IMG/VR virus record: IMGVR_UViG_3300020436_000038
Coordinates: 1 to 34,190 of that record
DNA length: 34,190 bases
Direction: 5' to 3' (one strand)
Origin: a virus
The notes under the pieces were generated by a model that saw only the letters and a program-made list of their open reading frames with translations, did not search any database and had not been told where the DNA came from. The translations under genes were made by a program, and so were the position numbers. Below are positions 7,642 through 21,679 of the stretch, one piece after another (position 1 is the first letter of the stretch; every line of letters begins with the position of its first letter).

Positions 7642-8817
7642 GAATCCTAACCTATCAACAAGTTTAACAGCATTGCCTGTTTTGTCAACAGCAACAAATC
7701 CTTCAGGATCTGTAACAACTAATCCATTTTCAGTTTGTGCAAAAGATCCTATGGCCATTGCTTGATTCATTTTTTTTAGAATCATGGCTTTCATCTTTTG
7801 AACCTGTTTATAAAAAGCTAACATTCTTTGTAATGGAGCCTGTAATTTAGTCAAAAATTGTGGCATTTGTTTAATCTTGTCCTGTCTTAACTGAAGTGCC
7901 TTCTGTGCCTTCAAACCAGATATTTGCTGTTGCATTCTGTCAGCATAAAATTTTCTAAAACCATTTAGAAATTGTGTGCTATTGGTTGGCAACTCTCCTT
8001 GCTTCACCATTGAATTGATGTAGATTTGAAAAAAAGGTACAAAATCTTGATTTGCTCCAAACAGATTACTAATATTTCTCGGTATATTAGTCAACAATGA
8101 TTCTAGCTTATCTAATTCATTTAAAAAAATTTTGGTCTCGTCGTCTGTGAATTTGGCACTGCCTGAAACATCTTTGTAACTTGCGTTGTCAAAAAACACA
8201 GCACTATTTTTTGAAAATTCTTCTGTGTTAGCCCCAGCACTGGCATTCATATCTGCTAAAGTATCTCCTACATAAGTGGTATGAAATATTATACCCACTT
8301 TGGCTGTATCAATTTGTTTGGCCAAATCACTCTGTTCAGGCACAGCGTATGTGATTGTGTTTGGTGTAAAAGTCAGATGTGGTTTACCGTCTATGTTTTT
8401 TCTTGTAATGTCTTCGTCTGTAAAAAGTAAGTCTCCTTGATACACGCCATTCATTCCTATCTTTTTCAAATGCACTAAACATTTTAAAAGTTTTTGACCC
8501 AGCTCATCTGTGCCATGATTGTTTGCTATATCTCTCTTGGTATAATTTATTTTTGGAGTGCCTGGATTAAAAACTGATTTAGTTCCTACAAAAAATCTAC
8601 CGTTGTCTGGATTAACACCACACACCACAGCAGGAGCACCGTCCCACTTAACAGATACTTGTATCGCTTCTGAACTTGTGCCCTTTAATGTTAACAAAAG
8701 GCCCCTAAAATATTCTACAACTGCCTTGCCACCTTCAAATCCATCAGTGATTATTATGTCTTCAATGTGTTCAAGGTGAGTCCTTTTGAATTCTGTTAGG
8801 ACATCTTCTATCAACAT
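7594..8817 (-). CDS. Ligase-like nucleotidyltransferase-fold phage protein (407 aa)
   Basis: The segment VSVKWDGAPAVVCG (Lys57) matches motif I (K-x-D-G) of covalent nucleotidyltransferases such as DNA and RNA ligases. GVYQGDLLF (about 124-132) could be motif III, and AKVGIIFHTTY (about 172-182) could be motif IV. A motif V lysine pair is not obvious. The C-terminal 170 residues are helical and basic (QQQISGLKAQKALQLRQDK) and do not look like an OB fold, so this is not a standard ligase. A GAGGA site precedes the ATG. The gene follows the 9116-8820 gene by two bases and shares its late promoter. It may be a polynucleotide-modifying or virion enzyme. Confidence 0.75.
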   Translation of the reverse strand: MLIEDVLTEFKRTHLEHIEDIIITDGFEGGKAVVEYFRGLLLTLKGTSSEAIQVSVKWDGAPAVVCGVNPDNGRFFVGTKSVFNPGTPKINYTKRDIANNHGTDELGQKLLKCLVHLKKIGMNGVYQGDLLFTDEDITRKNIDGKPHLTFTPNTITYAVPEQSDLAKQIDTAKVGIIFHTTYVGDTLADMNASAGANTEEFSKNSAVFFDNASYKDVSGSAKFTDDETKIFLNELDKLESLLTNIPRNISNLFGANQDFVPFFQIYINSMVKQGELPTNSTQFLNGFRKFYADRMQQQISGLKAQKALQLRQDKIKQMPQFLTKLQAPLQRMLAFYKQVQKMKAMILKKMNQAMAIGSFAQTENGLVVTDPEGFVAVDKTGNAVKLVDRLGFSRRNLTAVSKFKKAN

Positions 8818-8819
8818 TT

Positions 8820-9116
8820 TTAGTCCTCTTTGTATTCGCCGTCTATAGTTTTGAGATTTTGTTTTACTTCTTTATTTTCTTTTATTCGAGCAACACCTTT
8901 AGAAAATTTGGATGCATCCATATTTTTTATTGAACTGTGAAATTTTTTTTCTAATTTATATGCAGTTTCAGAATCAAAGTTTTCTTTAATATATTGCATT
9001 AATCTAATAGCACTTTCTAAAATATGAGATGCACGACTTTCAACAACATTTTCCTTATCTTTTTGGAAAGAAACGTTGCTTAACTCTTCTAATATACTTT
9101 TTGTGTGTTTTTGCAT
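8820..9116 (-). CDS. Small helical phage protein (98 aa)
   Basis: This charged, helical protein begins MQKHTKSILEELSNVSFQKD and contains ASHILESAIRLMQYIKENFD and a basic tail. I see no catalytic motif. It precedes the ligase-like gene by two bases, so the pair is co-expressed and may act together. A late motif (TGTAAATA) ends six bases before the ATG, and there is no Shine-Dalgarno sequence, fitting a leaderless or near-leaderless late transcript. Confidence 0.75.
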   Translation of the reverse strand: MQKHTKSILEELSNVSFQKDKENVVESRASHILESAIRLMQYIKENFDSETAYKLEKKFHSSIKNMDASKFSKGVARIKENKEVKQNLKTIDGEYKED

Positions 9117-9122
9117 TATCAG

Positions 9123-9130
9123 TATTTACA
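9123..9130 (-). promoter_or_regulatory. T4-type late promoter variant (TGTAAATA)
   Basis: TGTAAATA on the minus strand is followed by six bases and the ATG at 9116. It heads the two-gene unit with the ligase-like protein. Confidence 0.55.
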
Positions 9131-9174
9131 CTTTATTATAACATATCTTCATAATAAATCAACGTCGTTAATGC

Positions 9175-9729
9175 TTAATCTTGTACTTTGTATGCATAAT
9201 ATTCTAGTTCATTACCTTTGAACCACTCAGCATATATCCTGTTGCCAGTATCTTCCCTACATTCACGAACCCAAAAACCATATTTGTCTGCCCATTCATA
9301 GTTTTTTTCAATAGTCCATGGATAAAACCTCACACTTTCAACTCCTTTCCAAGGATGATCGCCAGTGCCTGGATTTTGTCGCCAGTATATTCTGTCACCT
9401 TTTTTACATATCTCAGATAACTTTTTTATCTGTGCTTCTACTTCATCTTCAGTTCCAAAGTTCAAACTACCTAATGCCAAATATACATTGAACTTTTGTT
9501 TAGGCACATAGTCTTCCCAACTGACAACTTCGTCGGCAAGGTCATTTGCTGGATCAATACCATATAATCTATCACCTAATTTTTCTTTGAATAAATTATA
9601 ACCACAGCCAATATCTAATATTTGATCTTTAGGTCTAATTTGTTGTAAAAGTTTCCAGCCAGAGTATTCAAACTTATCATAGTCTGGCTTCCAACTGTCT
9701 CTAAAATATTCAGTTTCCGTTTTGTTCAT
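9175..9729 (-). CDS. Class I SAM-dependent methyltransferase-like protein (184 aa)
   Basis: Motif I is DQILDIGCGYNLFKEKLG (about residues 35-52), with the acidic end of strand 2 at RLYGIDPAND. A strand-4 region, KFNVYLALGSLNFGTEDEVE, follows. The C-terminal half has several Trp residues (YWRQNPG, FYPWTIEKNYEWADKYGFWV). The protein is short but has all elements of a Rossmann methyltransferase. A GAGGA site precedes the ATG, and the start overlaps the stop of the 2OG oxygenase gene by four bases. It is the last gene of the 13312-9175 operon. The substrate is unknown. Confidence 0.8.
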   Translation of the reverse strand: MNKTETEYFRDSWKPDYDKFEYSGWKLLQQIRPKDQILDIGCGYNLFKEKLGDRLYGIDPANDLADEVVSWEDYVPKQKFNVYLALGSLNFGTEDEVEAQIKKLSEICKKGDRIYWRQNPGTGDHPWKGVESVRFYPWTIEKNYEWADKYGFWVRECREDTGNRIYAEWFKGNELEYYAYKVQD

Positions 9730-10376
9730 ATCCTCTTTTTTATTTCCTTTGTTAAAATTTTATGTGTTGTGTCTGTCATTACTCCTGTTATTACTAACAT
9801 AGGTCTAGGTTTGTTGCTTGCGTTGGCTGTGGCGTGTGGTATATTAGGCCAATCAAATTTGTGTATATCTCCTGCTCGCCATCTATCAAACTGTTGGTTA
9901 CCGTAAATTAAGAACTGGCCAGGTTCCCAATCTTGTAACATCACCATAATCCTAATAACATTATTTGGATTTGCATCTAAATCGTATAGTTTATCAATGT
10001 GCATGTTTAACACTTCACCTGTAAACTGTATGTGTAATTTAGATTTCACAGGTTTAAGAGCAAAGTAGTCTGTCATTCTTTGTAAGGTAGGACATTTTGT
10101 AAAGTCTTTCAGTCCGCGGTAAATGGTCATCTTAGGGTCGGCACCTGCTTCTCGTAAATCATTTTCTTCTGCATCTACATCACCGTCTGGTCTGCCTGTG
10201 CCTTCTCTACGGTTGCTCCAGTTTAAAGGCTTGGCATCGTTGATCACTGCTTGAACTTCAGTTTGCCATCCACCTGTGAACTTTCCTAGATGTTGAACAA
10301 TATCAGTGTCTGTATGCCATTTGTTAAAATGATATGTGCTTCTTGCTTTTGCTTCTTGCCAGTTACTTGTAGACAT
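9726..10376 (-). CDS. 2-oxoglutarate/Fe(II)-dependent oxygenase-like protein (216 aa)
   Basis: The jelly-roll iron site can be read as His126-x-Asp128 (NMHIDKLYD) and His181 (NIPHATANAS), with Arg191 as the likely 2-oxoglutarate anchor (KPRPMLVITG). The strand VIRIMVMLQDWEPGQF matches the one in the 21679-21113 protein (IVRIMVFLHDPAPGH), so the two are paralogs. Enzymes of this kind hydroxylate proteins, nucleic acids or small molecules. The gene sits between a P-loop protein and a methyltransferase in one operon with overlapping ends, so it probably acts on the same product. Substrate unknown. Confidence 0.85.
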   Translation of the reverse strand: MSTSNWQEAKARSTYHFNKWHTDTDIVQHLGKFTGGWQTEVQAVINDAKPLNWSNRREGTGRPDGDVDAEENDLREAGADPKMTIYRGLKDFTKCPTLQRMTDYFALKPVKSKLHIQFTGEVLNMHIDKLYDLDANPNNVIRIMVMLQDWEPGQFLIYGNQQFDRWRAGDIHKFDWPNIPHATANASNKPRPMLVITGVMTDTTHKILTKEIKKRI

Positions 10377-10944
10377 ACACGGTGATGTCCTTTTCGTTGT
10401 AATTATGTCTTATACCTTTGACAGGAAACTCTATGTCCAGTAATCTACAAAGTGTAAAATTATCATAAACCTTTGTTACTCTTTGTTTGTTATCTTTGAT
10501 AAAATTTAAAATGTCGTTGTTCTCTTTTTGTATGTGTTCCCACATTTTATCTAGGTTTTCAAAGTATTGATAGTTGGGGTATGTAATATTAAATTCACCA
10601 CACAGTTTCCACCATTCTAAACATTCATAATCATTTCTATAGACCATAACAATTGGATAGTTCTTTAACTTTAGCGTGTTTAATTGATGTGCGAAAGTGT
10701 GTGCTTTAACTATTCTTTTACCTGTGCCGGAGAAGGGTTTGTCCCATTCGTCTACGTCAAACTCCATCCCAGGATCCCAATATGCACCAATGTGCATGAG
10801 TTGTTTCTGTCCAGGAGTGTCGGCGTCATGCCAATACGTTCTTGCTTCTGTGTAGTCCGTATGATCAATATCTTTTGACCAGTATATGTTTTTAACAACA
10901 CTACTCCATTTTGATCCAGGTGCTCCTGTAAACAAAATATACAT
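10363..10944 (-). CDS. P-loop sulfotransferase-like protein (193 aa)
   Basis: The N-terminus MYILFTGAPGSKWSSVVKN has a glycine-rich loop after a hydrophobic strand, similar to the phosphosulfate-binding loop of sulfotransferases or a degenerate Walker A. A second block, YPIVMVYRNDYECLEWW, fits the 3'-phosphate-binding strand and helix, with R-N-D in place of R-D-P. I chose the ATG at 10944, which overlaps the stop of the upstream gene by one base (TGATG) and has a GAGG site. It forms a pair with the next P-loop protein upstream. Sulfate transfer is plausible; a nucleotide kinase is less likely. Confidence 0.7.
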   Translation of the reverse strand: MYILFTGAPGSKWSSVVKNIYWSKDIDHTDYTEARTYWHDADTPGQKQLMHIGAYWDPGMEFDVDEWDKPFSGTGKRIVKAHTFAHQLNTLKLKNYPIVMVYRNDYECLEWWKLCGEFNITYPNYQYFENLDKMWEHIQKENNDILNFIKDNKQRVTKVYDNFTLCRLLDIEFPVKGIRHNYNEKDITVYVYK

Positions 10945-11585
10945 CAAGATTCCTCACAAGCTTTTTTGACTTCTTTATCAAACTTGCCTTCTGCTGGTTG
11001 AATATATTTTTTATTGGCATCTTCTTTGAGATAATCTCTATAAACATCTGTAGGACAAAGCATTGGAAAGTTCATTTGTTTGCCAATTGATTTGATGTAA
11101 TCTGCGCCATACAGGAAAAATAATTCTTGTGATATGTAATGCACAGGCACAAGATCTTTCAATTGTTGAAAGTGATCAATTGCTTGTGGTGTGGTGTGTC
11201 CGCCACGTAATCTGTTTTGTTGTGTTTCTAAAATGTTTCTGTCTCGACCTATGATTGCGGCACTGACTTCACAGTATTTTTTGGCTTCTGCAATAAATTC
11301 TACGTACTTTGGTATTTGAGGCTGCTTGTTTTTGAAGTAAGGACAGCTAATACTAGTCATATAATATTTTTCCTTATGCCAAGTTCTATCTTTTAATTTT
11401 GTTGGATCTTCCCATGCATCAGCAAACGGTTCTAGGTGATGCCCTTGCCATTCGTCCTTTAACATTGGCCAACCTTCAACTAGTGGATGCATTGTAAGTA
11501 TTTTGGCAAAGAGATGGTTACCGGAGCCTTGCGGCCCGGTAACGATCAATAATTTAGGTTTTATGATATTTGTTTCTTGTTCCAT
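10944..11585 (-). CDS. P-loop sulfotransferase-like protein (213 aa)
   Basis: The loop LIVTGPQGSGNHLFAKIL (about residues 13-30) is a clear phosphate-binding loop and matches the start of sulfotransferase-like proteins, where a hydrophobic strand leads to G-x-x-x-S-G-[NT]. A later segment, EVSAAIIGRDRNILETQQ, looks like the 3'-phosphate-binding strand with R-D. The start lies inside the end of the symporter gene (25-base overlap), so the two are translationally coupled. Paired with the following gene it suggests a two-enzyme sulfation or kinase step. The acceptor is unknown. Confidence 0.75.
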   Translation of the reverse strand: MEQETNIIKPKLLIVTGPQGSGNHLFAKILTMHPLVEGWPMLKDEWQGHHLEPFADAWEDPTKLKDRTWHKEKYYMTSISCPYFKNKQPQIPKYVEFIAEAKKYCEVSAAIIGRDRNILETQQNRLRGGHTTPQAIDHFQQLKDLVPVHYISQELFFLYGADYIKSIGKQMNFPMLCPTDVYRDYLKEDANKKYIQPAEGKFDKEVKKACEES

Positions 11586-13006
11586 TTGCTGATTGCTAAT
11601 ACTAACACAACTGAACCAAAGATTGCAACTAGTGTTCCTGATAATGTATAAGGTAAAGATTTAGCCAATTTGCCGTATACAAACATAGGCACACCAATTA
11701 TGATAGCGATACCCATTCCATAGAACATTCCTTGTTCAGATAATAATTTAGGTTTAACAATAGCAATTAAACTTGGAAGCCATACAGCGGCTCTAAGTGT
11801 TGCAAAGAATAAGAAGATGTATAAAAGTGTGATACCTGGAATCTGTGTAATCAAAAATCCAGCTATTGCCAGTACTACCATACCAACCCTAGCATATTTG
11901 ATCACAGTCTTGTCATCAACTTTCTTCTTGTATTTGTTGTAGATGTCATGTCCAGTCATGTTTGCAATAGAACTAAACTGCGAGTCTAATATAGCAACCA
12001 GTCCTGCAAACACTAAAAACACAAAGAACAAACTTGCCCATGCTGGCAAGAAGTTTGCAATCACAATAGCATTAGTTGTTCCAACCATATTGCCTGGTAT
12101 CTCCATACCTGATCCTGCTCCTATGTAACCAAGCAGTCCCATCATGATAGGAATAATACCAAATATAAAGGCCGCAATCACAAACGATTTAAACACAGAC
12201 TTCTTCTGTATTGCAAATGCTCTTTGATAGAATGAATTGTCACCCCATGGTCCACCCAAGTGTCCAAGAAATGCCGCTGCACCAAATGTGGCAAATACTA
12301 CCCAGGCACGTTCGGTTCCAATAATGCTGGCACCGTCACCTCTCATACCACCTAGTCCTGCTTGTACAGTTTCCCAACCGCCTGCTATGTAAATCACAGC
12401 TGGTACAATTAGGATAACACCTGTCCATACAACTATAATTTTGAACATTTCTGTTATCACAGTGGCTTTTAGACCTGTTCTAAATGAATACAGCAAAGCA
12501 ATCGCCGCCATTGCAATCGCAGTGTACGTGAATGGAATGCCTGTTAGCACTTCAAGAGTTTTGGATCCTGCAAGTAGATTGATTGCAAAGGCACAAGTGG
12601 CCAATATGATCATCTCTACAATGTAGATATTCTGCACTCTCTTTGAAAATTTTTCTTTAATGAATCCGGAAAACGTAAAGCCTTCTGGAAATTGTTGTCT
12701 TAGCCTGTGAGCAAAATAAGCAAAGAATGCCAGTGTCAGAAAGTTACCCAAACAGAACCAAAAGTGTCCTACAAGTCCGTTGACGTAGGCCTGTTGTGTA
12801 CTGATGAATAGTCCTGGTGCCCAAAGCCATGCGGCTGCAACCGACATGGAACCTTGGAAGGTGTTCAGTTCTCTTCTTGCCACAAGGAAAGATGTTTTAT
12901 TGTTGTCATACCCCCTACTATACCAGTAGGTCAAAGCAAATGCAACCAGACCGTACACAAGTAACAAAGTGTATCCTGTGCTTTGGTCAAATAGTGGTAA
13001 GTTCAT
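11561..13006 (-). CDS. Sodium:solute symporter (SSS family, 481 aa)
   Basis: This is a full-length inner-membrane transporter with about 13 hydrophobic segments, beginning GYTLLLVYGLVAFALTYWYS. The block FLVARRELNTFQGSMSVAAA (about residues 40-59) is typical of SSS symporters, which have a conserved small-residue helix 1 for Na+ binding. The later VFAGLVAILDSQFSSIANM (about 331-349) is the SSS helix with the D-S-x-x-S-S Na2-site pattern. These transporters take up sugars, amino acids, urea, acetate or similar solutes with sodium. Subfamily and substrate cannot be fixed here. An AAGGA site precedes the ATG. It is unusual in a phage and shows no frameshift. Confidence 0.93.
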   Translation of the reverse strand: MNLPLFDQSTGYTLLLVYGLVAFALTYWYSRGYDNNKTSFLVARRELNTFQGSMSVAAAWLWAPGLFISTQQAYVNGLVGHFWFCLGNFLTLAFFAYFAHRLRQQFPEGFTFSGFIKEKFSKRVQNIYIVEMIILATCAFAINLLAGSKTLEVLTGIPFTYTAIAMAAIALLYSFRTGLKATVITEMFKIIVVWTGVILIVPAVIYIAGGWETVQAGLGGMRGDGASIIGTERAWVVFATFGAAAFLGHLGGPWGDNSFYQRAFAIQKKSVFKSFVIAAFIFGIIPIMMGLLGYIGAGSGMEIPGNMVGTTNAIVIANFLPAWASLFFVFLVFAGLVAILDSQFSSIANMTGHDIYNKYKKKVDDKTVIKYARVGMVVLAIAGFLITQIPGITLLYIFLFFATLRAAVWLPSLIAIVKPKLLSEQGMFYGMGIAIIIGVPMFVYGKLAKSLPYTLSGTLVAIFGSVVLVLAISKWNKKQIS

Positions 13007-13023
13007 ATTTTTCCTTTTTGTTG

Positions 13024-13188
13024 TTAATTATTGTGTGTTTGATTAGTGGATTTAAAAACTGAACCGTATTTGTTTTCATACAGTTTGAGCTTCTCAGACA
13101 GCTCGTTTATAATCTGTTGATATTCAGCTATCTGCACTTGTAGGTTACCAATTTCATACTCAAGTCTTTTGTTATCTTCCTTGGCCAT
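13024..13188 (-). CDS. Coiled-coil mini-protein (54 aa)
   Basis: A 54-codon frame begins MAKEDNKRLEYEIGNLQVQI and continues as a heptad-like helix (AEYQQIINELSEKLKLYENK) with a polar tail ending QTHNN. It is a simple coiled coil, so it probably oligomerises. The start overlaps the end of the 13312-13172 gene by 17 bases, and the stop lies 17 bases before the symporter start, so all are on one transcript. It was identified by reading the sequence between larger genes; function unknown. Confidence 0.7.
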   Translation of the reverse strand: MAKEDNKRLEYEIGNLQVQIAEYQQIINELSEKLKLYENKYGSVFKSTNQTHNN

Positions 13189-13312
13189 TGTATGCTTTAT
13201 ATGATCTCTTTTTGTGCTTGTTCATAGAGCTCAGCTTCACACGGCTTTTGTTTGCAGACTGTGAAGATTTTTTAGGCTTACCTCTGTCGTAAATGTTAGT
13301 TCCTAATCTCAT
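13172..13312 (-). CDS. Basic mini-protein (46 aa)
   Basis: This 46-codon frame begins MRLGTNIYDRGKPKKSSQSA and ends MNKHKKRSYKAYNGQGR, with 13 Lys or Arg residues. It is the first gene after the promoter at 13318-13346, with the ATG six bases from the -10 box, so translation may begin at or near the 5' end of the mRNA. The high charge suggests nucleic-acid binding. I have the impression that similar small basic proteins occur in marine T4-like phages, but cannot confirm it here. Confidence 0.65.
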   Translation of the reverse strand: MRLGTNIYDRGKPKKSSQSANKSRVKLSSMNKHKKRSYKAYNGQGR

Positions 13313-13317
13313 ACTTC

Positions 13318-13346
13318 ATAATACAGTAGACAAAATTATAAGTCAA
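13318..13346 (-). promoter_or_regulatory. Sigma70-like promoter of the 13312-9175 operon
   Basis: On the minus strand TTGACT (13346-13341) and TATTAT (13323-13318) are separated by 17 bases. The ATG of the basic mini-protein follows closely. The promoter drives the symporter, sulfotransferase-like, oxygenase and methyltransferase genes, so these may be expressed earlier than the TAAATA-type genes. Confidence 0.7.
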
Positions 13347-13355
13347 CCTTATAAT

Positions 13356-13363
13356 AGTAAATA
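13356..13363 (+). promoter_or_regulatory. T4-type late promoter (AGTAAATA)
   Basis: AGTAAATA is followed by five bases and the ATG at 13369, in the 56-base gap between divergent genes. Confidence 0.6.
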
Positions 13364-13368
13364 ATATT

Positions 13369-13788
13369 ATGATCAAGTACGCTTTAATTTGTGAGTGCGA
13401 CAAAGAATTTGAAGGCTGGTTTCCTGATAGCAAAAGTTTTGATAAGCAAAAGAAGGCAGGGCTGATTACCTGTCCAATGTGTGACAGCCCAAATGTAGCT
13501 AAAGCCGTAATGGCACCAAGCTTGAAACGGAAAAGTAATCAAACAATCAAGCCTGCACAATCTCAGTTAATGATGAGTGGCAAAGCCAGACGTATACTAA
13601 AAACTATCGAGGAAACTGTGAAAAAAGAATTTACCAACGTTGGTAAACAGTTTCCACAAGAAGCACGTAAGGCTGCCAAAGGAAAGCGTGACGAAAAAAT
13701 ATATGGCACAGCAACTAAAAAAGAGATAAAACAACTTGAAAGTGAAGGTATAGATATTTTTCCTGTGCCAGAAATCAAAGACAATTAA
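13369..13788 (+). CDS. DUF1178 family protein (139 aa)
   Basis: The N-terminus MIKYALICECDKEFEGWFPD, then LITCPMCDSPNVAKAVMAPS, is the signature of DUF1178 proteins: a zinc-ribbon-like domain with C8, C10 and the pair C36-x-x-C39, followed by K-A-x-MAP. The C-terminal part also fits (VGKQFPQEARKAAKGK, then IYGTATKKEIKQLESEGIDI and PVPE), so both ends of the family are present at normal length. DUF1178 genes are common in alphaproteobacterial chromosomes and their function is unknown. Its presence here suggests capture from such a host. It overlaps the next gene by one base (TAATG). Confidence 0.9.
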   Translation: MIKYALICECDKEFEGWFPDSKSFDKQKKAGLITCPMCDSPNVAKAVMAPSLKRKSNQTIKPAQSQLMMSGKARRILKTIEETVKKEFTNVGKQFPQEARKAAKGKRDEKIYGTATKKEIKQLESEGIDIFPVPEIKDN

Positions 13789-14793: not shown

Positions 14794-14825
14794 AAAGGGC
14801 GGTACTAACCTATCGCCCTTTTTTT
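14794..14825 (+). terminator. Rho-independent terminator
   Basis: AAAGGGCG (14794-14801) pairs perfectly with CGCCCTTT (14814-14821) across a 12-base loop, followed by a T run. It closes the 14312 cassette. The stem is identical to that of the 3002-3033 terminator. The last codons of the convergent radical SAM gene lie inside it. Confidence 0.92.
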
Positions 14826-15664
14826 GTGACTGAACTACGGTGATCAATTAGACTTTCCTGATCAAATTTGGAAGGACACTGTCTACAGATTGCGTGTGGT
14901 TTACCAAAATTGTCCAGAAACTTTTGTAATTCAAAGTCTGAACAGGTTACATCCAATCCTGTATTAACATATGGTTCCCATAACTTTTCATTAGGCGTGT
15001 TGAAGCGTTTCAATATCCATGGCGTCAAGCCTGCGGTGCTGCACTTGTATAATTTACCCTGAAACAAGAACGGACAACGTTGGGCCACACAGATATCAAA
15101 AGCATCGGATGGAGTGTTGTTGTGCGGCTTCATGTTATGATAATCGTTAACAAAACTTTTCATAAATGTTTCAGGTGAATTGATTTGAAATTTAAAATTG
15201 TTTTTGGTAGACCAGCGATTGATACCGTATTCTGTGACTGGCTTGAATCTAAAGTCATCCATGATTTTCTTGATAGCTTGATGTATTACATCATCATCAA
15301 TATGATATGATATTTTCAATATTGAATTACCAATTTCCTCCAGCAACTTCACGATGCGATATTTTTTCATTAACAAAAGACCATTAGTGGGAACTCTTAT
15401 TTGTGTGTTAGGCAGTAGTTTTCTTAAGCCTACTATAATTTTTTCTAGGTGTGGATTCATAAAAGGTTCGCCACCCATGACACCAACACACTCAGGTTCC
15501 AATCGTTCCAACCATGGTTTAATTTGAGCTTCAATTTGTGGCCAGCTTGTGTAGCCGCTATGTTTCAATTCACTGAAAGTGGCACAGCCTGTACAGGCTA
15601 GGTTGCAGGCATGTATGAACTGTATTTCTATGTACTCAATAGGTAAACGTGTTGACCAAGGCAT
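14810..15664 (-). CDS. Radical SAM enzyme (284 aa)
   Basis: The [4Fe-4S] SAM motif is HACNLACTGC with Cys20, Cys24 and Cys27 (CxxxCxxC). The GGE-type motif VGVMGGEPFMNPHLE follows near residue 62. A second cysteine set near the C-terminus (DICVAQRCPFLFQGKLYKCS, then CRQCPSKFD) is like a SPASM or twitch auxiliary cluster. Such enzymes often modify peptides or sugars. A CTTAAATA motif ends five bases before the ATG. It faces a second radical SAM gene, head to head, 39 bases away. The substrate is unknown. Confidence 0.88.
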   Translation of the reverse strand: MPWSTRLPIEYIEIQFIHACNLACTGCATFSELKHSGYTSWPQIEAQIKPWLERLEPECVGVMGGEPFMNPHLEKIIVGLRKLLPNTQIRVPTNGLLLMKKYRIVKLLEEIGNSILKISYHIDDDVIHQAIKKIMDDFRFKPVTEYGINRWSTKNNFKFQINSPETFMKSFVNDYHNMKPHNNTPSDAFDICVAQRCPFLFQGKLYKCSTAGLTPWILKRFNTPNEKLWEPYVNTGLDVTCSDFELQKFLDNFGKPHAICRQCPSKFDQESLIDHRSSVTKKGR

Positions 15665-15703: not shown

Positions 15704-16609
15704 ATGAAGATAACAAGTTTTCACATAGAAGCCTCAACTTATTGTAATGCAAGATGCCCTGGATGCCCACGAAACATCCGAGGTTACAATCTTAAAAATT
15801 TTGTTCATCAAACACATCTATCACCAAAAAGATATACAGAAATAAGACAAAAATATTTAGACCTTGAGCGTGTGCGTATCAATGGCGGACTCGGAGATCC
15901 TATGATGAATCCATACATCTATGAAATTGTAACCATTAGCAACTGTGAAACACAAATAACCACGAACGGATCAATTGGCACACGAAAAACGTTTGAACAA
16001 TTGGCTGCACATAAAGTTCAAATTGAATTTAGCATTGACGGTCTCGAAGATACAAATCATCTATATAGACAGGATGTACCTTGGAATAACATTATGGATC
16101 GTGTCAAATGGTTTATCAATGCAGGCGGTGAAGCGTACTGGAAATGGGTACCATTTAAACATAATCATCATCAACTTGCAGATGCGAAAGCCATGGCAAA
16201 AGATTTAGGATTTAAGGATTTTTATACTAATGAACAACAAAGAGATGATTTTCCTGCCTTAGACAAGTATGGAAATTTGTCTCACTGGATTGAGCCTCAT
16301 GATCGACCCAGTGTTAACACAAAGCAAATTGACTCAAAAGCGATGATACAACAAATGGCAACATTGACACGTTTCATGCCTGAAACAGGAAAAATGTTTA
16401 GTATTGATTCCTGTGAGCATTTACAAGGAGAGGTTTATATCACAGCCAAAGGAGAAGTTACACCTTGTTGTTATCATGGTACTAATATTGGAGATAGAGT
16501 GTCAGTGCCTGTAGAAAAGTTTGACCAATTACAAAAAACTTGGAACACAAATAATTGTGATCCAACCTGTGCAAATAGTTGTGGAAAATTAATAAATGTT
16601 ATGCGTTAG
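15704..16609 (+). CDS. Radical SAM enzyme with SPASM-like C-terminus (301 aa)
   Basis: The cluster motif is STYCNARCPGCPR with Cys14, Cys18 and Cys21. RVRINGGLGDPMMNPYIYE takes the place of the GGE region, and ITTNGS follows as in many SPASM enzymes. The C-terminal half has SIDSCEHLQGEVYITAKGEV followed by CC, then CDPTCANSCGKL, consistent with an auxiliary cluster. The family includes peptide and sugar-modifying enzymes. It is transcribed divergently from the 15664 gene and is not a close copy of it. Its stop overlaps the end of the 16976-16599 gene. Confidence 0.88.
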   Translation: MKITSFHIEASTYCNARCPGCPRNIRGYNLKNFVHQTHLSPKRYTEIRQKYLDLERVRINGGLGDPMMNPYIYEIVTISNCETQITTNGSIGTRKTFEQLAAHKVQIEFSIDGLEDTNHLYRQDVPWNNIMDRVKWFINAGGEAYWKWVPFKHNHHQLADAKAMAKDLGFKDFYTNEQQRDDFPALDKYGNLSHWIEPHDRPSVNTKQIDSKAMIQQMATLTRFMPETGKMFSIDSCEHLQGEVYITAKGEVTPCCYHGTNIGDRVSVPVEKFDQLQKTWNTNNCDPTCANSCGKLINVMR

Positions 16610-17435: not shown

Positions 17436-18108
17436 ATCTAATAATATCCATTGTGCTTTTAATCAATTCATTATTATAGGCATTGGCAAAAACATTTACC
17501 TTATGAACTTCATCTTGTAGATAGTCACAAAGCACTAATCCTATTTCATAATCAGTAAGGTTAGATATGTCCTTGAAAGTTTTTGCTTTACAACACGAAG
17601 AGGTATGTAATATTTTTTCATTGTAATCCGTAAAATGTGGTAAATTTACTTTTCTTTTTTCATCAATAAAATATATTGTGTCGTCTACCAACTTATCTGT
17701 GTCTAAGAACTTTTGAATGTCTTTTTTAAACATACTTACATTTGTAAAAAAATTAGTCATGTCAATATTAAAACTTTTAGGACAAATTGGATCGTGATAG
17801 TTCCAATACAATCTTAATAGTTCAACTGGAGTAGATTTTTGATCTGTCTTTACATAATTTAGATATTTGGGAAAAAATTTAAGATTTGCATTTTTGAAAT
17901 AAGGTTTAATTACTCTATGCCTATCATCTATAAGGTTAATATCATAAGGATGAACAGTATTAATAGTGCCAGGCCAATCTGGTTGACTGTGACTGTCGCT
18001 TTCTATTTTATCATAGGTAGCCCCATAACATTGAATTGCAATGATGGCTTGTAAAAGATGTCCAAAAGTTCCAGGCTCCCAGGTAACAGTAAATTTTTTA
18101 TTTGCCAT
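17425..18108 (-). CDS. Unknown protein, possibly sulfotransferase-like (227 aa)
   Basis: The N-terminus MANKKFTVTWEPGTFGHLLQ has a hydrophobic strand and a small G-T-F-G turn that resembles the degenerate phosphate loop of some phage sulfotransferase-like proteins, but it is weak. The rest is rich in aromatic and Asp/Asn residues (ELLRLYWNYHDPICPKSFN). It contains four cysteines, including a CC pair. It overlaps the dehydrogenase gene by 11 bases and the 17435 gene by 11 bases, so it is in the same operon. Function unknown; a sugar-modifying role is suggested by neighbours only. Confidence 0.65.
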   Translation of the reverse strand: MANKKFTVTWEPGTFGHLLQAIIAIQCYGATYDKIESDSHSQPDWPGTINTVHPYDINLIDDRHRVIKPYFKNANLKFFPKYLNYVKTDQKSTPVELLRLYWNYHDPICPKSFNIDMTNFFTNVSMFKKDIQKFLDTDKLVDDTIYFIDEKRKVNLPHFTDYNEKILHTSSCCKAKTFKDISNLTDYEIGLVLCDYLQDEVHKVNVFANAYNNELIKSTMDIIRYEN

Positions 18109-19246
18109 AATAAACTACATTTGGTCCAGGCGGATAGCTTCTCCACGGATCAAATATAATTGTTGCATTGTCTACTTCAAATTTATCAGACTCATGCACA
18201 CGTACAATAACATTAATAGGAACGTTAAATCCATTTCCAATCTGTCCACCGTGTTTGAGAACATAATGTTGTACCAACAAACTGAAAGACCCATCAGTAA
18301 GACTGGTGCCGGCCTTATATGAGTCGGATGTAAAATGTATAACCTTACCATGTTCCAGTATTGCTAGTGCCATGTTTTCTGCTTGTTTTTCTCTGGCTGT
18401 CATAATACTGGCAAACATATCATATCCAAGATCAAGATCTTTTGCTAGCCAACGCAATGCAATATTATCTCTTGGATGACATGCTCCGCCATCACCTAAA
18501 CCAGGCCGGAAGTAGGCTGAGCTTATAATTCTCTTTGTGCTTTTGGCCAAAGCATTTGTGACTGTGTCAACATTCATGTTGCCTAGTTTTTGTGCCACGT
18601 CCTGTATCATGTTTACAAAAGATAGTTTTGTGCTTATGAAAGTGTTGTAAAAAATTTTAATTGCTTCACACTCTTCCCATGTGCCAAATTCAATTCTTGG
18701 CATGACATCACAGGCTTGATTGTAAAAGTTTTCAAGTTGCTCAACCTTGCCTGTTGGTTGGCCATTGCTGTTACCTATCATTACCATTTCAGGATTTAAC
18801 ATATCCCATTTCACAGTGCCCATAGCAATCAAATAAGGATTATATAATAATTCAGTATTGGTGACCAAACTTGCCAGTTCACGTCTAATTGTTCCAGGCA
18901 ATACTGTAGAAATTAAAACTAGGGTCTGTGTTACACCCATATGTCTATTACAATTTTCTAGAACCTCTTTGACTGCCGAATAGTCAAAGTCTTTAATCTG
19001 TTTCTCACTTGTTGGTTTGCTGCCGTCATAACCTTCTTCGTGTGGAGTTGGTGTGGCCACAAAAACAATATCTCTATCCCTACACAGATCATCGATTGAC
19101 GAACGCATTTCAATAAGCTCACTTTGTTTTGAAACTATATCATAACCAGCCACATCAAATCCTTTTGATGCTATTGCTTCGGCACATGGTAAGCCAAGTT
19201 TACCTAGGCCAACAAATCCAATTTTGATATCATAAATTATGTTCAT
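18098..19246 (-). CDS. UDP-glucose/GDP-mannose 6-dehydrogenase family protein (382 aa)
   Basis: The N-terminal Rossmann motif is IGFVGLGKLGLPCAEAI (GxGxxG at 13-18). DIVFVATPTPHEEG and LISTVLPGT follow, both typical of the family. The middle has FYNTFISTKLSFVNM with a conserved lysine (Lys207), and the catalytic cysteine loop reads GDGGACHPRD (Cys256). These enzymes oxidise nucleotide sugars to uronic acids. The C-terminal third is divergent but ends FDPWRSYPPG. The catalytic Cys and Lys are both kept, so activity is likely. The start overlaps the upstream amidinotransferase stop by four bases. The product could be an acidic sugar for a glycan. Confidence 0.9.
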   Translation of the reverse strand: MNIIYDIKIGFVGLGKLGLPCAEAIASKGFDVAGYDIVSKQSELIEMRSSIDDLCRDRDIVFVATPTPHEEGYDGSKPTSEKQIKDFDYSAVKEVLENCNRHMGVTQTLVLISTVLPGTIRRELASLVTNTELLYNPYLIAMGTVKWDMLNPEMVMIGNSNGQPTGKVEQLENFYNQACDVMPRIEFGTWEECEAIKIFYNTFISTKLSFVNMIQDVAQKLGNMNVDTVTNALAKSTKRIISSAYFRPGLGDGGACHPRDNIALRWLAKDLDLGYDMFASIMTAREKQAENMALAILEHGKVIHFTSDSYKAGTSLTDGSFSLLVQHYVLKHGGQIGNGFNVPINVIVRVHESDKFEVDNATIIFDPWRSYPPGPNVVYYGK

Positions 19247-20193: not shown

Positions 20194-21138
20194 ATGAAAA
20201 CTATTGTTTCAAATGCAGGTAACACAGCCGAAGTAGCCCAATTAAGAAAAGATATTTTAAAATTGTTTGAAACTAATAGTAAAGTTGAAGTTCATCTTGT
20301 TCAACCTGGAATCATGTATGAAATAAATGATGTGTACCATACTGTAATAGATTTCATGAACGAATGGGTTGGTTATAATATAAAGTTTGTATCTAATTTG
20401 GTTCCTATTAAAAAAGTGTGTGTAGATTTTGAATACAGTAATGATATGTTTTTAGCAGGACACAAATTGTATCAACAAAATAATAAATGTAAGGATCTTC
20501 TAGCAAAATGTGTGCCACATCATAAAAAAAATTTTCAATTACATTGGGACTTTTTGTTAGGTGAAAGCAGTCCAAACAAAGATTGGCTTTATAATGTAAT
20601 ATCAAAACATCCAATACATGGCAAAACATTTTTAACCTATTATGGAAAAGATAGCAACAGAGGTTACTGGAGTGATGAAGTAGTAAGGCCAAAAGCTCAC
20701 ACAGCTGAAACTATAGGTGATAGATATAATACTCAAATACGTTGTAGCGATTTAATTGATCCTTCAATCTATAATCAAACAATTTACTCTGCTATGATTG
20801 AAACCACGATACATAATGACTTTGCAATGTTTTCAGAAAAAGAGGCAAAACCTATTGTGGCGAAAAGACCTTTTGTAATTTTTGGCACCGCTGGACAACT
20901 CAAAGCTTTCAAACAATTAGGTTATAAAACTTTTGATCTAGTAATAGATGAAAGCTATGATGATATAGAGGACAAAGAAACTAGATGGCACAAAGCGTTA
21001 GACTCAATGTCTAAATTATCATTACAAGATCCGTTAAGAGTGTATGCAAGATTAAAGCCAATACTTGAACATAACAAAAAACATTTTGAAAGCTTTGAAT
21101 GGCGTAAATCTTTTAGACATTCACAGGATTACGTTTAG
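20194..21138 (+). CDS. Glycosyltransferase-like protein, paralog 2 of 3 (314 aa)
   Basis: The C-terminal block EKEAKPIVAKRPFVIFGT, then LKAFKQLGYKTF and IDESYDD, matches the proteins at 6571 and 21713 and resembles the nucleotide-sugar-binding half of GT10-like enzymes. The N-terminal half (NAGNTAEVAQLRKDILKLFE) differs from its paralogs. The start was set at 20194 because the ATG at 20188 overlaps the TAAATA motif. It is divergent from the amidinotransferase gene and convergent, with a 26-base overlap, with the 2OG oxygenase gene. Probable glycosyl transfer; sugar and acceptor unknown. Confidence 0.7.
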   Translation: MKTIVSNAGNTAEVAQLRKDILKLFETNSKVEVHLVQPGIMYEINDVYHTVIDFMNEWVGYNIKFVSNLVPIKKVCVDFEYSNDMFLAGHKLYQQNNKCKDLLAKCVPHHKKNFQLHWDFLLGESSPNKDWLYNVISKHPIHGKTFLTYYGKDSNRGYWSDEVVRPKAHTAETIGDRYNTQIRCSDLIDPSIYNQTIYSAMIETTIHNDFAMFSEKEAKPIVAKRPFVIFGTAGQLKAFKQLGYKTFDLVIDESYDDIEDKETRWHKALDSMSKLSLQDPLRVYARLKPILEHNKKHFESFEWRKSFRHSQDYV

Positions 21139-21679
21139 CTTTTCCGGTGATTTGAATTACATATCTATCAGTTTCCGCAAGATTGGCTGCCATGTGTGTG
21201 GTTGCTCCTTGCCAACTGTACCAAGTGCCTGCCTGTCCTGTGCAAAATTTATCTTTGATCCATAGTTGATGTCCCGGAGCAGGGTCATGCAGGAAGACCA
21301 TTATCCTTACAATTTGTTCTACAGCGGCACTTTTATTTCTAGCATAGGTTGGATAGTTGTCTTGGTGCCAGGGTAGAATCATTCCTGGTGTGTATTTTGC
21401 AAAGGCATAGACACTATCATCTATATCAAAATAATTTAACACTGGGCCAAATATTTTGTCAACATTTTTTGGCACAAATATCCCTTTGCCAGCTTCTTCA
21501 AACTTTGGTATATAACAGCCAAGACGCTCTCCATAGATGTCATAGTTGTTAGATTTAGTAGTGAAGCCTTTATCCTTATCTGGATAACGATACCATGGTA
21601 AGGATTCATAGTCATCCACCTGCCAGGTGACAGGAATTGTACCACTTTTATCATGCCAATCCGAATATGTGTATTTCAT
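21113..21679 (-). CDS. 2OG-Fe(II) oxygenase-like protein (188 aa)
   Basis: The iron site is readable as His105-Gln-Asp107 (ILPWHQDNYP) and His162 (ATTHMAANL), with Arg172 (DRYVIQITG) as the likely 2-oxoglutarate anchor. VRIMVFLHDPAPGHQLW closely matches the 10376-9726 protein, so these two are paralogs from a common phage or donor ancestor. It ends against the convergent gene at 20194. No good late motif is seen upstream, only TTTACATA. Substrate unknown; a sugar or protein is plausible given the neighbours. Confidence 0.85.
   Translation of the reverse strand: MKYTYSDWHDKSGTIPVTWQVDDYESLPWYRYPDKDKGFTTKSNNYDIYGERLGCYIPKFEEAGKGIFVPKNVDKIFGPVLNYFDIDDSVYAFAKYTPGMILPWHQDNYPTYARNKSAAVEQIVRIMVFLHDPAPGHQLWIKDKFCTGQAGTWYSWQGATTHMAANLAETDRYVIQITGKAKRNPVNV

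Follow-up and report, generated by a model that had tools for sequence, protein, structure and literature searches.

In the SSS carrier SiaT, the Na2 site is formed by the TM8 hydroxyls of S342/S343, and replacement of either serine by alanine abolishes transport (PMC5931594); Na3 consists of an acidic TM5 residue together with TM8 residues (PMC5931594), the corresponding set in CHT1 being D188/D349/S350 (PMC11589582). CbrA, in which the Na2 residues are absent, appears to be proton-driven (PMC7918813), and ActP and MctC are reported to be proton-dependent (PMC7746861). Among viruses, the available sections of PMC4164917 list tctA and a 2OG-FeII oxygenase as putative auxiliary genes on SUP05 viral contigs and give the role of tctA in SUP05 viruses as unknown. 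A search of open-access text found no literature on phage SSS symporters. The viral SSS symporter analysed here belongs to a phage cassette that recurs, and in that cassette it appears to be exchangeable for a second, unrelated transporter, a feature that was missed by the preliminary description of this DNA.

The window, which is the whole stretch of DNA that was analysed, is the 34,190-base record of a marine virus of bacteria (IMGVR_UViG_3300020436_000038). Its minus strand encodes an SSS-family carrier of 481 amino acids (11561..13006) in an open reading frame with an ATG start and no internal stops. The carrier matches the Pfam SSF profile (PF00474; 5.9e-18, 65.4 bits versus a cut-off of 22.8) over residues 40-431 and profile positions 1-403 of 406; scores 101 bits against the stricter TIGR00813, below the cut-off of 184; and matches PHROG 20720, which has no annotated function, at 1.1e-94. 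At E <= 0.001, only the generic sss, PutP and PanF models of NCBIfam are matched, with no match to the cation/acetate symporter models. SSS chains top the list of fold matches to its AlphaFold model (mean pLDDT 82, pTM 0.84), identifying the SSS fold, with CHT1 at Z 39.2 over 461 residues and DUR3 at Z 37.3 over 450. The proposal of an intact, full-length SSS symporter is thus upheld by the reading frame, the SSF profile, the PHROG, the predicted fold and the absence of stops from its relatives (see below), and the proposed role in solute uptake is likely. A choline or urea carrier was considered, CHT1 and DUR3 being the nearest solved structures, but no neighbouring genes supporting either substrate were seen, and no substrate is claimed for that reason.

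The symporter gene leads a series of five overlapping genes, and the overlaps of the downstream genes (11585/11561, 10947/10944, 10376/10363 and 9729/9726) make co-transcription of all five plausible. The next four genes, all on the minus strand, encode a sulfotransferase-fold protein with an invariant GPQGSGNH loop (c1; 10944..11585), the gene of which overlaps that of the symporter by 25 bp; a second sulfotransferase-like protein with a GAPGSKWSS loop (c11; 10363..10947); a 2OG-Fe(II)-oxygenase-like protein with a conserved HxD...H...R pattern (c3; 9726..10376); and a SAM-dependent methyltransferase-like protein with a DIGCGYN motif (c2; 9175..9729). The operon with an oxygenase and a methyltransferase that had been proposed therefore stands, as overlapping genes for proteins resembling these enzymes, and its "two P-loop proteins" are corrected to sulfotransferase-fold-like proteins. 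In structural comparisons of c1, ranks 1-23 are all sulfotransferases (Z 11.4 to 9.2), with adenylate kinases barely lower (9.2); none of 20 c1 members has a Pfam sulfotransferase match, and a relative of c11 matches Pfam Sulfotransfer_3 at 9e-5 and 23.3 bits, below the cut-off of 27. Sulfotransferase activity of c1 and c11 may accordingly be proposed at the level of the fold. A relative of c2 has a weak match to Methyltransf_23 (0.0019, below the cut-off); c3 has no oxygenase match in Pfam or among PDB sequences, and its residues H126, D128, H181 and R191 are invariant in 12 aligned sequences. No useful match to c1, c2 or c3 was found in Pfam, PHROGs or 50,697 deposited phage records, and c11 has two weak matches in deposited phages. 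c1 was not found in 398 genomes of one phylum or in plasmids, a genome search that shows little, having been run without a positive control. The window also encodes a second protein related to the oxygenase-like c3 (21113-21679, minus strand).

A sigma70-like promoter, and with it expression early or in mid infection, had been suggested for this operon, but such matches occur at chance level: positions 8700-13600 contain 20 of them, versus 17.2 +/- 4.8 in shuffled sequences. The best upstream match (13346-13318) precedes not the symporter itself but two manually translated short open reading frames of the same direction (minus strand), which encode 46 (13172..13312) and 54 (13024..13188) amino acids, the latter lying directly upstream of the symporter. 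The frequency of TATAAATA in the window is likewise at chance level.

Clustering of neighbouring genes, with only distinct loci counted, indicates that the surroundings of the symporter recur. Among 50 distinct loci of the window clade, c1 is present in 44, c2 in 43, c3 in 17 and c11 in 10, at least one of the four in 46, and c1 together with c2, no more than six genes away, in 41, counts that depend on mechanical calling of reading frames and on profiles built from these same loci. The symporter adjoins c1 and c2 on otherwise differing phage backbones, often with c3 and c11, and the full set is present beside the diverged symporter of locus L265. The c1 family is large (at least 580 confirmed viral places). 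In many phages, c1 occurs alone at a constant position beside a conserved gene of 235 amino acids with no transporter in view (e.g. L143 6001-6624; such loci lie among L143-L205). Divergent radical-SAM genes adjoin in the window (14810-15664, minus strand; 15704-16609, plus strand), and relatives of the second are found near other cassettes.

In many cassettes that lack the symporter, TctA (Pfam, 3e-87) and a TctC-like receptor are encoded between c2 and c1 or c3; the receptor has a Pfam TctC match in L194 only (4.5e-18) and is otherwise assigned by its size, its position and a signal-like N terminus. With TctA as the starting point, a scan returned 63 viral loci, 46 of them distinct, of which 45 carry cassette genes (c1 in 33, c2 in 32, c3 in 32 and c11 in 19); the queries were derived from cassettes, which biases the close set towards a common context, a concern answered in part by the distant set (32-43% identical to the query), where cassette genes are present in 16 of 17. 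SSS and TctA being unrelated, what is conserved is the slot and not one gene; and because unrelated transporters fill one slot, the imported solute would belong to the task of the enzymes, which is our main argument.

A small P-loop kinase (AAA_33 / APS-kinase-like) is also encoded near the cassette, mostly that of the TctA type (L199 6639-7130 and 20 similar loci), and the versions in L194 and L321 carry a fused nicotinamide-nucleotide-adenylyltransferase-like domain. APS kinase was considered as a cassette member and set aside: the L199 protein is above the Pfam cut-off but below every NCBIfam cut-off, and so is named APS-kinase-like only.

Bacterial relatives of the symporter were absent from a first scan of genome contigs with a close-family query; a second scan returned 80 bacterial loci, mostly Clostridia prophage-like. 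At L057-L129 (e.g. L071 5884-10411) and L049 (7912-11820), a canonical Na+-type SSS gene is followed by PAPS_reduct-family and ParB-like genes. SSS proteins of groundwater metagenome-assembled genomes (MAGs) adjoin asparagine-synthase-like genes, and other PP-loop genes lie beside the carrier in phages L233 (4848-6017), L236 (5350-5988), L237 (6308-6955) and L257 (2103-3413). With further PP-loop neighbours at L059 (6386-7684), L053 (8186-9277) and L055 (4167-5915), the enzymes that adjoin these other relatives are varied (PAPS_reduct, QueC-like, asparagine-synthase-like). Since prophage, MAG and phage relatives all adjoin such genes, this SSS branch is often linked to nucleotide-activating enzymes.

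The ion site of the window symporter differs from that of E. coli PutP, on which the residue columns were aligned: A338/I339 replace S340/T341, E186 replaces D187 and K189 replaces Q190. The Na2 hydroxyl pair on TM8 (S340/T341 of PutP, S342/S343 of SiaT) is absent throughout a 49-member clade, where A or S is followed by I, V or L; 48 of these phage proteins combine AI, SI or SV with E and K, and the diverged protein of L265 has SL, D and K. Seventy-three others (relatives from prophages and bacteria, and phages that include L170/L171) have ST, D and Q. In a quick tree built without the Na2 and TM5 columns, some branches of which are long, the 49 phage members form one clade (SH-aLRT 100) with L170/L171 as sister (support 97). 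Across 178 aligned SSS proteins, including 50 sampled cellular SSS proteins and E. coli ActP, the lysine accompanies an intact Na2 pair in 0 of 108 and a disrupted pair in 65 of 70; because lineage underlies these counts and a few of the rows are duplicates, they represent about three independent gains of lysine rather than 65, namely in the phage clade, the ActP type and L067. The ActP type is represented in the cellular sample by 14 proteins with AV and K, a double change that E. coli ActP also shows; L067, from a bacterial MAG, underwent a separate change (GT at the Na2 pair, K at TM5); and in four cellular rows the pair is disrupted but the lysine is absent. A differing change at the same site was seen in L059 (5052-6470, a bacterial MAG), where a lysine lies inside the Na2 pair itself (S-K). 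Loss of sodium-site residues, which the preliminary description had named as a finding that would refute its reading, is seen at the Na2 hydroxyl pair, as established by alignment and not from model coordinates. From the alignment and the direction of the LeuT-fold helices we infer that K189 may lie near the Na2 position. Proton coupling is predicted because loss of the Na2 pair with gain of a lysine also characterizes the proton-dependent ActP/MctC, with DUR3 similar, and the label "sodium" symporter is doubtful for the phage carrier. The notion that D341 is unusual was discarded, DS being common there in SSS proteins; PutP has SC.

On balance, we lean towards a joint reading in which the phage encodes an inner-membrane SSS carrier, proton-driven or sodium-independent, that imports an organic anion, and the neighbouring enzymes decorate this solute or a derivative of it. 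During infection, a LeuT-fold carrier would be placed in the inner membrane of the host; K189 would replace sodium between TM1 and TM8; uptake would then be driven by protons, or be independent of sodium, rather than being driven by sodium; the molecule imported would be small and organic, with an organic anion as the likeliest class; and the enzymes of the cassette would decorate that molecule or a product derived from it. The class of the solute is a tentative assignment by analogy, prompted by the TctA/TctC carboxylate importers that fill the same slot and by the ActP-like ion site. Against the joint reading as a whole, neighbouring genes of phages can be swapped as modules even when they belong to no common pathway.

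The alternative that survives best, though unlikely, is that the cassette is a decoration module (sulfation, methylation) for glycans of the virion or cell surface, to which the transporter would supply a sugar acid or another building block; in part, this is a narrower form of the joint reading. The sulfotransferase folds and the methyltransferase and oxygenase types of the cassette accord with it, as does the APS-kinase-like P-loop kinase present in 21 of 109 transporter loci, but the kinase assignment is below the NCBIfam cut-offs. Two further genes of the window also accord with it, one for an FkbM methyltransferase and one for a UDP-glucose dehydrogenase (UDP-glucose/GDP-mannose dehydrogenase family; 18098-19246, minus strand), but this dehydrogenase lies outside the recurrent cassette.

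Ordinary sodium-coupled uptake of a nutrient (e.g. an amino acid, urea or a monocarboxylate), with neighbours that are unrelated phage genes, is a still weaker candidate. The window symporter retains E186 (E for D), D341 and S342, an Na3-like set with K189 nearby, so that some binding of sodium is possible, which also counts against the joint reading; L170/L171, although borne by cassettes, keep canonical ion sites with the full Na2 pair; and the urea carrier DUR3 is the best sequence match in the PDB. Sodium coupling is nonetheless at odds with the disrupted Na2 pair and new lysine in all 49 clade members, and unrelated neighbours are at odds with the recurrence of c1 and c2 on differing backbones and around an unrelated importer.

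Exchangers (AdiC/LAT-type) are found among the APC-superfamily carriers with a TM5 lysine, and a facilitator, exchanger or exporter, in which the fixed lysine would serve to equilibrate a solute or to export a product of the cassette, is improbable but deserves mention. AdiC and BasC are listed among the fold matches of the symporter model, well below the SSS chains. The alternative occupant of the slot, TctA together with a TctC-like receptor, is part of an import system, in agreement with its Pfam description, and this argues against export or exchange.

The preliminary description had also raised the question of an assembly chimera. Next downstream of the cassette lie genes for a virion structural protein (phrog_11854; 8820..9116, minus strand) and a DUF6267 phage protein (PF19782; 7594..8817, minus strand), the latter with matches in 469 deposited phage records, the nearest being Pelagibacter phage HTVC008M; endolysin and DNA ligase genes are also present in the window. 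A scan of IMG/VR returned 47 loci with relatives of the symporter (47-100% identity), and a profile scan returned 72, many on contigs already among the 47; the 50,697 deposited phage records contain a single match, at 35% identity, in a gut phage. It is tailed phages that carry this family, as indicated by the T4-type capsid protein Gp23 above the cut-off on 2 of 18 larger cassette contigs and by terminase on 5 of 16. That the symporter is host DNA joined to a phage contig, or a decaying passenger gene, is scarcely credible, and a chimera is excluded for the family: its GC (0.402 versus 0.362 for the window) and GC3 (0.353 versus 0.28-0.30 for its neighbours) are slightly elevated, but independent contigs have the identical gene order on both of its flanks, none of the 47 loci has a stop inside the match, and Gp23 and terminase occur on cassette contigs. 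Recurrent and intact on genuine viral genomes, the symporter has the context of a phage auxiliary metabolic gene.

Transporters of phages are usually discussed singly, as nutrient boosters; here, two unrelated importers share one enzyme set, which suggests that many aquatic phages perform a defined chemical task with an imported solute. We give about even chances to the broader proposition that aquatic phages carry an undescribed import-and-tailor cassette, with SSS or TctA/TctC in its transporter slot, and that the SSS carrier switched from sodium to protons convergently with ActP. The cassette offers a testable explanation for the tctA genes of SUP05 viruses, and the exchange of the Na2 pair for a lysine suggests a simple rule by which the coupling ion of SSS carriers could be predicted from sequence, resting at present on about three lineages (the phage clade, the ActP type and L067).

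Four described systems resemble the locus in part. The tctA and 2OG-FeII oxygenase genes of the SUP05 contigs match two members of the cassette, but the available sections of PMC4164917 mention neither a cassette nor partners of the sulfotransferase-fold or methyltransferase kind, nor any exchange with an SSS carrier. The SSS proteins of gut Clostridia prophages and of gut phage MT836198 (L049) are phage-borne and 35% identical to the window symporter, but they have the canonical Na2 pair and TDxxQ, and their partners are PAPS_reduct-family and ParB-like proteins rather than the cassette enzymes. DUR3, a urea-proton symporter by its PDB name, matches the window symporter in sequence at 1.9e-30 with approximately 18% identity, and has S-A at the ion site (the second Na2 hydroxyl being absent) with histidine in the TM5 column; unlike the window symporter it is eukaryotic and longer. 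ActP and MctC share the SSS fold, and E. coli ActP has A-V at the Na2 pair together with lysine in the TM5 column, as in the phage clade. ActP has neither the acidic TM5 residue nor the TM8 aspartate, however, whereas the window symporter, which differs from the ActP/MctC group in matching no cation/acetate symporter model and in being borne by a phage, keeps both E186 and D341.
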